A stretch of 64,000 bases of DNA from Christiangramia sabulilitoris (GTDB taxonomy: Bacteria; Bacteroidota; Bacteroidia; Flavobacteriales; Flavobacteriaceae), in the NCBI RefSeq assembly GCF_007050985.1, contig NZ_VHSF01000003.1, forward strand, positions 62,001 through 126,000. The letters run 5' to 3'. Of this stretch, positions 24,469 through 26,456 are shown piece after piece (position 1 is the stretch's first letter; every line of letters starts with the position of its first letter). Position numbers and translations under genes: made by a program. Below the pieces are notes generated by a model. It was not told the DNA's origin, ran no database searches, and saw only the letters and a list, made by a program, of their open reading frames with translations.

Positions 24469-24530
24469 CATTTATAAAGGTGGCTAAAAGAATTTCACTA
24501 ATTTTAACCCTGAACCAATCAAACCAACCA

Positions 24531-25010
24531 ATGAAAAAATTCGCAATTGAAATCAAGTGGGGTATAATTTTCAGCCTCATTTCTCTGGCCTGGGTATTCC
24601 TTGAAAAAATACTGGGCTGGCATGATGAGAATATCGCTCAACATGCGATCTATACCAACTTGTTTGCTATCGTCGCAATTGTCATCTATGTTCTGGCCTT
24701 GCTGGATAAGCGAAAGAATTTCTACAACGGCCACATGACCTGGAGCCAGGGATTTATATCTGGAATAGTGATCAGCATCGTAGTCGCTATCCTCTCTCCT
24801 GTTGCCATGTATATTACTCATAATTTTATCACACCAGATTATTTCACCAATGTGATAGACTATTCTGTAGAGAGCGGGGTGATGAAAAGGGAAGATGCCG
24901 AAGAATATTTTAATCTGACCTCATACATCATCCAGTCATTCTTTTTTGCTTTAGTTGTGGGGGTGGTTACCTCTGCGGTAGTGGCGTTTTTTGTGAGGAC
25001 GAAGAAGTAA
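24531..25010 (+). CDS. DUF4199 family membrane protein
   Basis: The 159-residue protein shows the DUF4199 layout of four membrane helices. It starts KKFAIEIKWGIIFSLISLAW and contains MTWSQGFISGIVISIVVAI followed by the variable loop with the YITHNFITPDYF stretch. A GTG at 24480 would give a longer frame, but the ATG at 24531 matches the family start and follows the terminator by a reasonable leader length. Function is unknown. The first repeat of the REP-like array begins 5 bases after its stop codon. Confidence 0.85.
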   Translation: MKKFAIEIKWGIIFSLISLAWVFLEKILGWHDENIAQHAIYTNLFAIVAIVIYVLALLDKRKNFYNGHMTWSQGFISGIVISIVVAILSPVAMYITHNFITPDYFTNVIDYSVESGVMKREDAEEYFNLTSYIIQSFFFALVVGVVTSAVVAFFVRTKK

Positions 25011-25015
25011 CACCT

Positions 25016-25101
25016 GTCATTCAGAGCGGAACGAAGTGAAGCGAAGAATCTCAATCGGTCATACTGCAAACACATAGAGATTCCTTCTACGTCGGAATGA
25101 C
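25016..25101. repeat. REP-like 86-bp palindromic repeat, copy 1
   Basis: It starts GTCATTCAGAGCGGAACG and ends CGTCGGAATGAC. The outer GTCATTC/GAATGAC and the inner GAATCTC/GAGATTC pair as imperfect inverted arms around an AT-rich centre (AATCGGTCATACTGC type). Confidence 0.9.
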
Positions 25102-25111
25102 AATAAACACT

Positions 25112-25196
25112 GTCATTCAGAGCGGAACGAAGTGAAGCGAAGAAACTCAATCGGTAATACTGCAAACCATATAGATTCCTCCTTTGTCGGAATGAC
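25112..25196. repeat. REP-like palindromic repeat, copy 2
   Basis: An 85-bp near-identical copy in the same orientation, separated from copy 1 by 10 bases. It has GAAGAAACTC in place of GAAGAATCTC at the inner edge of the left arm. Confidence 0.9.
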
Positions 25197-25203
25197 ACCA
25201 ACA

Positions 25204-25290
25204 TGTCATTCAGAGCGGAACGAAGTGAAGCGAAGAAACTCAATCGGTTATACTGCAAACACAAAGAGATTCCTCCTGCGTCGGATTGAC
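25204..25290. repeat. REP-like palindromic repeat, copy 3
   Basis: An 87-bp copy in the same orientation, 7 bases after copy 2. Its right end reads GATTGAC instead of GAATGAC. Confidence 0.9.
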
Positions 25291-25298
25291 AATAAAAT

Positions 25299-25660
25299 GT
25301 TATTCAGAGTAAAGAGAACTAAAGGAAAGAAATGAAAACTCTAGGAACACATAATTACTATGTATACATACTTACTAATAAAAATAAAACTGTTTTATAT
25401 ACCGGAGTTACTAATGATCTGAATACTAGATTATACCAACATCAGAATCCTGAAAACCTTACGAAGGCATTTACTGCAAAGTATAGATGTTTCTATCTAA
25501 TATATTTCGAAATCTTTCAGGAAATTGAATCTGCGATAAAATGGGAGAAAACTATCAAAGGCTGGTCAAGACAAAAGAAAGATGAATTAATAACTAATTT
25601 TAATTCTGAATGGAGATTTCTCAATAATGAAATTTGAGATTCCTCCTGCGTCGGAATGAC
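25299..25660 (+). mobile_element. REP-arm-bounded GIY-YIG element (gene inserted between repeat arms)
   Basis: Positions 25299-25331 align without gaps to the 33-base left arm of the neighbouring repeats (23 of 33 by eye). Positions 25636-25660 are the 25-base right arm (GAGATTCC..GAATGAC). Between them lies exactly one gene, the GIY-YIG nuclease at 25332-25637. The ATG directly follows the left arm, and the last two bases of the TGA stop are the first two of the right arm. The roughly 30-bp centre of a solo repeat is thus replaced by an ORF. This looks like an autonomous unit beside four non-autonomous copies; mobility itself is not shown. Confidence 0.7.
25332..25637 (+). CDS. GIY-YIG nuclease family protein (YhbQ/UPF0213-like, 101 aa)
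   Basis: The protein is essentially one GIY-YIG domain. YYVYILTNKN carries the first strand (GIY equivalent VYI), LYTGVTND the YIG equivalent, LNTRLYQHQ the catalytic arginine helix, and AIKWEKTIKGWSRQKK the metal-binding glutamate. All key residues are present, so it may be an active DNA endonuclease. No additional DNA-binding domain is visible. The gene fills a REP-like repeat copy from arm to arm, which points to a role in repeat maintenance or movement, comparable to REP-associated tyrosine transposases. That comparison is inference. Confidence 0.9.
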   Translation: MKTLGTHNYYVYILTNKNKTVLYTGVTNDLNTRLYQHQNPENLTKAFTAKYRCFYLIYFEIFQEIESAIKWEKTIKGWSRQKKDELITNFNSEWRFLNNEI

Positions 25661-25668
25661 AAAAGGAT

Positions 25669-25754
25669 GCCATGCATAGGGGAACGAAGTGAAGCGAAGA
25701 ATCTATACAAATTCTATCGTGCATCTATATAGATTCCTCCTGCGTCGGAATGAC
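25669..25754. repeat. REP-like palindromic repeat, copy after the GIY-YIG gene
   Basis: An 86-bp gene-less copy in the same orientation as the others, with a diverged left end (GCCATGCATAGGGGAACG) and a diverged centre. The right arm is the same as that next to the nuclease gene. Confidence 0.85.
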
Positions 25755-25760
25755 ACATTA

Positions 25761-26456
25761 CTAAATCTTCAACAACAAATTTGGATCAGGGCAGTTCTGT
25801 AGGTAATTGTCCTGATCTTCTTTTTTTATTACTCCGGGATAATCTCCAATATTTCCCTGCATGCTTTCCATGATCTGAAAATGCAGGTGCGGGGCGTAAT
25901 CACCATTTTCATGAAAATCACCTAATTCTGCGATCTTATCCCCTGCTCTCACCCTATCGCCAACAGCAAGCGTCTCCAGTGAAGCACGCGAAAGATGACC
26001 GTAAAGGGTATAAAAAGTTCTGTCGTTTTGAGAATGCTCTAAAATGATTGTAGGACCGTAGTCGCCAAAATTATCATTATCCCTGAAACTATGAATACTT
26101 CCATCCAGGGGACTCAAAATATCTGTATAAGCAGGCACCCAGATATCAAGACCTATGTGGATGTTTCGGTTGGCTTCCTTGTTATTATTGAACAATTCAC
26201 TGCGGTTATATAAAGTTCTTAACTCATTATAACCCCCATAGGCTGCTTTCGCGTTTCTATTCTTAAGGAACTCGTCAATAAACATGGAAAATGCTTCTGA
26301 AGAAGCAACCTCAAGTCTTAACAGATCCCTGTTATTTGCAGAAAGGTCTATAAAAACATAATCCTCTTTAAGATAATCACCTCCAATAACCGGAGTGAAT
26401 CCCGGGGTTAAATCATAAATAAAATCAGGAAAATCCTGGGTGTGATTTGGCTTCAT
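25761..26456 (-). CDS. M23-family peptidoglycan metallopeptidase (no signal peptide)
   Basis: The 231-residue protein has the LytM-type zinc site: H100 and D104 in HIGLDIW, H154 in YGHLS, and the HxH pair H190/H192 in HLHFQI. These enzymes cut peptide cross-links in peptidoglycan. No export signal is visible at the chosen ATG, and no upstream start codon would add one. Location is therefore unclear, either cytosolic or exported by an unrecognised route. The final residues lie next to the REP-like array. It is 24 bases downstream of the DUF4097-like gene and could be co-transcribed with the ECF operon. Confidence 0.87.
   Translation of the reverse strand: MKPNHTQDFPDFIYDLTPGFTPVIGGDYLKEDYVFIDLSANNRDLLRLEVASSEAFSMFIDEFLKNRNAKAAYGGYNELRTLYNRSELFNNNKEANRNIHIGLDIWVPAYTDILSPLDGSIHSFRDNDNFGDYGPTIILEHSQNDRTFYTLYGHLSRASLETLAVGDRVRAGDKIAELGDFHENGDYAPHLHFQIMESMQGNIGDYPGVIKKEDQDNYLQNCPDPNLLLKI

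Follow-up and report, generated by a model that had tools for sequence, protein, structure and literature searches.

The window, a stretch of 64,000 nucleotides from Christiangramia sabulilitoris, holds a 750-bp intergenic region (25011-25760) between a forward-strand DUF4199 gene (24480..25010) and a convergent, reverse-strand M23 peptidase gene (25761..26456), which serve as left and right anchors of the site compared across the genus. Within this region lie a forward-strand gene for a GIY-YIG nuclease of 101 aa (25332..25637) and four gene-less doublets of a repeat that we call family A, all in forward orientation and each 87-88 bp long, three of them 5' of the gene (25015..25102, 25111..25197 and 25204..25291) and one 3' of it (25668..25755). 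The gene itself sits between the arms of a copy of the same repeat. Its right arm (25636..25660, forward strand) shares its first two bases, GA, with the TGA stop codon and is identical to two solo right arms at 24 of 25 positions. The 34-bp left arms of the three upstream doublets are identical to one another, and that of the gene-bearing copy (25298..25331, forward strand) agrees with them at 24 of 34 positions, as compared to 22 of 34 for the best non-family 34-mer in the 64 kb; weak when taken alone, its identity thus rests on its position and on the relatives, and the arm is a decayed one. A first-pass annotation of the window had described a gene set between the arms of a palindromic repeat, four gene-less copies around it, a right arm starting in the stop codon and a left arm joined to the ATG without spacer. 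The bracketing, the four copies and the overlap are borne out, the first by the adjoining doublets as well as by copies elsewhere in the genome. The lack of a spacer is correct for the window copy and does not extend to a rule, for the two closest relatives of the protein (73% and 75% identical) have 30-31 bp at this place. The term palindrome is apt only loosely for family A, in which three of the four window doublets, folded as single DNA strands, gave weak hairpins (z -1.8, 0.0, 0.0); two family-E arms, introduced below, gave z -3.7 and -4.6.

Elsewhere in the organism's own genome (G000, 3.2 Mb), whole gene-less family-A doublets are found at C17:520391 and, as a pair, at C12:197942-198062, with an additional right-arm match at C1:855175. 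A strict left-arm pattern matched the three window copies alone in this genome, and the right arm together with a looser pattern was required to recover the repeats beyond the window; this pattern, for its part, does not match the right arms of the window, which differ in loop length. The same genome has 11 matches to PF01541, eight of them in small ORFs.

PF01541 is the sole domain found in the window protein by Pfam scan (E 1.7e-18, 67.1 bits). Alignment of 22 diverse members shows the GIY-YIG active-site columns Y, Y, G, R, H, E and K to be invariant (the roles of the individual residues belong to the general background on this fold), and the window protein family thus has both the domain and its catalytic residues. 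The AlphaFold model is confident (pLDDT 90.8), and its nearest solved fold in Foldseek is UPF0213 protein BH0048 (1zg2, E 6e-5), the single match below E 0.001, followed by Slx1, weakly (E 0.005-0.06), and then UvrC. dN is smaller than dS in 7 of 9 gene pairs, that is, in every pair for which both were computable, dS being saturated in the two pairs that include the window gene. From this and the invariant residues it follows that the family has in general been kept as a working nuclease, and the intact frame and residues of the window copy agree with its being one. The first-pass annotation had called the element possibly domesticated, which it may be; besides the dN values and the single home locus at which genes of the genus mostly remain, broken gene copies occur (L088, L093, L098).

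Matches to the window protein are present in 18 of the 24 genus genomes, and these matches, together with neighbouring loci, gave a set of 74 distinct small GIY-YIG ORFs that includes broken ones. Fifty-six of the 74 are flanked on both sides by members of one repeat family (50 REP-like, 6 involving tRNA 3' ends), 12 have a family on one side and 6 on neither, as scored with patterns for ten REP-like families that were defined after the flanks had been inspected; here and in all other counts, kinship is ignored. Control placements in the same loci had one family on both sides in 0 of 2089 cases and on one side in 100 of 2089; being random positions and not matched small genes, they leave a little room for coincidence. 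The arms of family C follow the pattern GTCATTTCGACCGnAGGGAGAAATCT ... AGATTTCTCAGTCGC..CGAAATGAC and those of family E the pattern CGTCACCCTGAACTTGTTTCAGGGTCT ... GATGCTGAAACAAGTTCAGCATGACG, and a common plan is recognized in families C, D and E, consisting of GTC, an A-initial stem, a loop, the return stem, T, then C and T. The two arms of family E differ in a like manner (left CACCC, right ATGC) in 10 of 12 genes, and the right arm begins one base past the stop in 7 of the 12; it lies directly at the stop in two of three family-A genes, that of the window included. In families A and C, the gene is found inside the doublet with both arms in one orientation. The layout of an ORF between two inverted REPs is seen for families A, C, E and F; family D differs, in that an additional right arm, intact in two cases and decayed in three, separates five of its six genes from the left arm, so that the gene follows a whole doublet and does not split one.

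Other small GIY-YIG genes in the genus have different surroundings. One (L087, G008:C1:1684956-1685192), scored as having no repeat family among the 74, is enclosed by an unclassified inverted repeat recognized by eye, and an 80-aa ORF of more distant type (L011, G000:C12:510284-510487) has flanks without coded repeat families. A separate clade lies directly 3' of tRNA genes (L012 at G000:C1:901878-902457, L089, L090, L091, L095, L096 and L097), the tRNAs being Phe, Val and Met where ARAGORN detects them (none detected in L096 and L097). Copies of the tRNA 3' segment follow these genes, as judged by eye, and L089-L091 and L012 form arrays of 2-4 genes. Judging from this arrangement, members of the clade are apparently tRNA-targeting elements that would restore the tRNA 3' end.

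Repeat families are specific to nuclease clades. A tree was drawn for 60 of the 74 ORFs, after removal of rows that were short, unlabelled, or overlong and lacking an ATG; on it, 11 repeat labels require 10 changes, which is the minimum, as compared to a mean of 43.1 for shuffled labels (0 of 200 as low). Most families have a single home neighbourhood in the genus (A, 3 ORFs in one; C, 8 in one; D, 6 in one; F1, 6 in one; E, 12 in two), and the match between clade and family is therefore partly one of shared descent. As evidence for arms travelling with the gene, the genus tree is weakened accordingly; REP-like families occupy one to three neighbourhoods each, not the many unrelated sites among close relatives that would be expected of a mobile element. 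Free of this problem are the contrast between families A and C at the DUF4199-M23 site and the wide set from outside the genus. Of 22 DUF4199 loci collected, one (L070) was incomplete and dropped. The 21 resolved sites comprise 11 having gene and arms (three family-A genes with A arms, six family-C genes with C arms and two broken C genes), four having repeats only (three E, one A) and six without repeat by the coded patterns, four of which are just 24-32 bp long. Presence and absence at one site between relatives, as expected of a mobile element, is thus found here, and gene-bearing and repeat-only versions of the site both exist. The family-C gene of G003 at this site is about ten residues shorter. 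The region as a whole (25011-25760 in the window; L050-L071) is a hot spot, ranging from 24 bp to about 1 kb in relatives and hosting different nuclease/repeat pairs, and a third family (F3) is located about 2 kb away in several genomes. In G008 (L071), the site measures 873 bp and lacks these repeats; judged by eye from a motif, it appears to contain a nucleotidyltransferase/HEPN-like pair of small genes.

Outside the genus, searching with family-E proteins matched at least 585 stretches in named genome contigs, 562 of which were confirmed, and the best 80 of these at least 562 loci make up the wide set. The 80 are mostly from Bacteroidota, with few or single records from Chloroherpetonaceae, Ignavibacteriae, Melioribacteraceae, Balneolaceae, Mesoaciditogaceae, Alphaproteobacteria, Deltaproteobacteria, Gastranaerophilales and candidate-phyla bacteria; the records from beyond Bacteroidota are nearly all MAG contigs, so that their phylum assignments may err through binning. 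The E core, derived from the genus flanks and coded after the wide-set flanks had been viewed, was found within 150 bp at up to one substitution on at least one side of the gene in 68 of these best 80 loci and on both sides in 48, as compared to 5.1% and 0.16% of 16000 control placements. Cores with the tag outward were present in 38 of the 80 (0.08% of placements), and exact cores occurred at 5.3 per kb near the gene and 0.075 per kb beyond 1 kb. The 48 both-sided loci represent 26 neighbourhoods, all 80 represent 45. A family-blind test for GTC plus hairpin gave both sides in 46 of the best 80 of at least 562 loci, against 0.3% of 1580 placements, and several of the 12 loci without E core show other tagged arms by eye (L107, L172, L174). 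Among 50,697 phage records, none matched a family-E protein.

In the sections of the survey by Di Nocera, De Gregorio and Rocco (2013) on which we draw, CGTC-tagged REPs are described as GTC-tagged hairpins, mostly in tag-outward dimers, defined by a CGTC (or TGTC/CCTC) tag, a stem of 8-9 bp and a loop of 4-5 nt, found in five phyla with S. meliloti, A. lipoferum, N. aromaticivorans and Neisseria among the named hosts, and apparently without a dedicated transposase, what mobilises them being left open (PMC3733652). A tblastn search of plasmids returned 37 places in 33 records, Sinorhizobium meliloti, Azospirillum lipoferum 4B, Novosphingobium aromaticivorans, Neisseria and Sphingobium among them, and 16 loci were fetched. 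The "S. chlorophenolicum" among the CGTC hosts of 2013 we take to be a Sphingobium. By eye, the Shinella gene (L186) lies between CGTCATCCTCGGGCTTGACCCGAGGATCC and its near-inverse, that of Azospirillum (L191) has CGTCATCCCCGCGAAGGCGGGGATCCAGG-type units on both sides and that of Neisseria (L193) has GTCATTCCCGCTCAGGCGGGAATCC after the stop and an inverse unit upstream. A GTC hairpin was present on both sides at 9 of the 16 loci (control 2.2%) and on at least one side at 11 (control 19%; n=320); L185, L188, L189, L190 and L192 had none, some of them showing other repeats by eye. Relatives of the nuclease in Sinorhizobium, Azospirillum, Novosphingobium and Neisseria are located next to repeats of CGTC type. 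Dispersal was counted in seven records, three of which matched the single pattern used, with W08 and L195 left out. Pattern matches lay within 1 kb of the gene in 5 of 5 cases on S. meliloti pSymB and in 6 of 7 in Rhizobium CIAT894; in Shinella, 4 of 12 were by the gene and the others dispersed. Both arms of family E fold with a stem of 8 and a loop of 5, within the definition of a CGTC REP, as do L186, L191 and L193 by eye. Family A falls outside of it, having a TGTC tag, a right arm of 5-bp stem and 9-nt loop and an unfolded left arm at the gene.

The number of repeats follows the presence of the gene in part. The window protein has no match in six genus genomes, two of them incomplete (G020, 67%; G012, 90% complete), and these six have 0, 0, 0, 0, 3 and 1 family-C repeats; the remaining 18 genomes have 1-39 each (Mann-Whitney p 6e-4, kinship ignored). 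When gene and repeat are compared clade by clade, the coupling across the genus is modest, with p 0.02 for family C (G002 included, although the coded patterns detect no arms at its C-like gene) and p 0.015 for family D (kinship ignored in both). Genomes with a D gene have 25, 6, 17, 5 and 11 family-D repeats and those without have 0-2, except G010 (38), G021 (12), G009 (11), G019 (8) and G007 (7). In 296 genomes of the class, 183 have a match to the family-E model (E 1e-5), in a search whose loose first pass and limited scoring of candidates may miss some genes. Family-E repeats occur in 67 of the 296, that is, in 55 of the 183 with a match and 12 of the 113 without. Strong E-type genes (cut-off 1e-33, chosen after the match table had been viewed) are present in 28 genomes, and 14 of these have four or more copies, as compared to 21 of the 268 others (Fisher 1e-7, kinship ignored); nine of the 28 lack the E pattern. 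G000 has 69 family-E matches and one intact family-E gene. Strict coupling of repeat and gene is rejected, for G010 in family D and G272 (83), G207 (23) and G266 (4) in family E carry at least four repeats without a detected gene.

Small GIY-YIG genes are, in summary of these results, bracketed by the arms of repeat families that are also scattered without a gene; the families are specific to nuclease clades, and the arrangement is met with again at unrelated loci well beyond the genus. Bracketing and branch-specific repeats suggest the nucleases as the missing partners that spread or maintain the repeats. The interpretation that we favour, and consider rather probable, is that small GIY-YIG nuclease and tagged repeat doublet form an autonomous/non-autonomous pair, analogous to RAYT and REP and built on an unrelated enzyme. 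The first-pass annotation had proposed a likeness of this kind, and it has held up: homologues of the subfamily do have arms at their borders, the arms of the window do match solo repeats elsewhere in the genome, and clade matches family. The annotation's further proposal, a nuclease that recognises or maintains the repeat, is a putative role. A Y1 (RAYT) transposase was considered as driver and rejected. PF01797 gave no match in the organism's own genome and matches in 8 of 24 genus genomes; of 11 Y1 loci located in relatives, 0 are flanked by the families described here. Y1-type transposase ORFs in G003, G011, G013 and G004 (L200-L203) have a close palindrome of their own on both sides (AGACCTCACAGG..CCTGTGAGGTCT), unlike the GIY-YIG families.

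In the proposed course of events, the nuclease would recognise its own arm (in families E and CGTC a GTC-tagged hairpin, probably extruded or single-stranded) and nick or cut there, near the GTC tag. Host repair or replication would then copy doublets into new intergenic sites. Local multiplication of doublets next to the gene would account for the tandem arrangement at several genes, and the gene itself would move rarely, being inherited at its home locus. GIY-YIG enzymes act by hydrolysis, and strand joining is not known of them, so that they would not by themselves account for the copying step. This weighs against the pairing, as do the home loci, the repeat-bearing genomes without gene, the strong-gene genomes that lack the E pattern, the layout of family D, the MAG contigs and the weak hairpins of family A. 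A simple mobile element is further disfavoured in that the zero-spacer fit is confined to the window copy.

Among the alternatives, the one that survives best, and is still unlikely in our judgement, has the gene as a homing-endonuclease parasite of independent repeats, cutting empty doublets and being copied into their centre by repair via arm homology. The gene inside a doublet with arms of one orientation, as in families A and C, would be in keeping with such a course, as would the repeat-rich genomes in which a gene was not detected, and the tRNA-associated clade resembles site-specific insertion. Efficient homing should, however, fill many doublets, and instead one or few genes per family are found against up to tens of repeats; neither clade-specific repeats nor the scarcity of family-C repeats in the six no-match genomes would be expected if the repeats were independent. 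Less probable again is a role in repeat maintenance as opposed to mobility, whereby an Slx1-like, structure-specific nuclease resolves repeat hairpins or cruciforms, and repeats spread by another agent persist where the nuclease renders them tolerable. The weak Foldseek similarity to Slx1, a nuclease of branched DNA, the dN below dS in the seven computable pairs and the stable home locus are compatible with maintenance; yet it requires another agent of dispersal, where 16 of 24 genus genomes are without a Y1 transposase match, and does not by itself explain the gene's position between arms of its own family. Functionally unlinked repeats and small genes that both gather in crowded intergenic regions, as clustering in few sites like DUF4199-M23 might intimate, are very improbable and largely contradicted already by the absence of two-sided placements in the 2089 controls, the match of clade and family and the recurrence in 26 neighbourhoods among the best 80 of at least 562 loci.

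A wider generalization of the pairing of nuclease and repeat, to which we give slightly less than an even chance, is that small GIY-YIG nucleases, standing alone, are the makers of a large superfamily of interspersed palindromes in bacteria, which would comprise CGTC-tagged REPs and related repeats and extend from Rhizobiales and Neisseria as far as Bacteroidota and further groups. The nucleases would constitute a second, independently evolved REP-making machinery that operates by nicking and repair without a strand-joining transposase, and a separate clade would use tRNA 3' ends as arms. Our study has importance in offering a candidate enzyme for each repeat family, including the CGTC repeats whose mobiliser is left open in the consulted sections of the 2013 survey (PMC3733652), and in bringing the question within reach of an experiment with a single small protein and a single oligonucleotide. 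If true, REP-like repeats have been paired with an enzyme at least twice, on unrelated folds, and genes annotated just as "GIY-YIG nuclease family protein" acquire a role. In the open-access literature (PMC), we found no report of a link between GIY-YIG and REPs and no paper with "GIY-YIG" and "repetitive extragenic palindromic" together, nor a repeat partnership for UPF0213-type or Slx1 nucleases; subscription journals or preprints could hold a report of the link.

With regard to known systems, RAYT/REPs are described, in the portion of the source that we use, by an ORF between two inverted REPs, more REPs and doublets elsewhere, and a comparison of enzyme and repeat trees (PMC2817692). The families of this study resemble them (REPINs, REPtrons) in the ORF between inverted repeats and in the further copies and doublets elsewhere. 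They differ in the enzyme, which is a GIY-YIG protein (PF01541, nearest folds GIY-YIG) and not a Y1/HUH transposase (PF01797), and in the tag, arms of families C, D and E and of most proteobacterial loci starting with GTC, unlike the GT(A/G)G (GTAG-tagged) REPs of RAYT type. The likeness to UPF0213-type and Slx1 nucleases is one of fold. GIY-YIG homing endonucleases bring the same catalytic domain inside a short target-like sequence; distinct from them, no intron or intein is seen here, few genes face many repeats, and the arms themselves are dispersed. Closest in the repeats are the CGTC REPs, with which GTC-tagged hairpins, tag-outward layout and the hosts S. meliloti, A. lipoferum, N. aromaticivorans and Neisseria are shared, whereas the loops of families A, C and D exceed 4-5 nt and, unlike in the CGTC REPs as published, a GIY-YIG gene lies between or beside the repeats.
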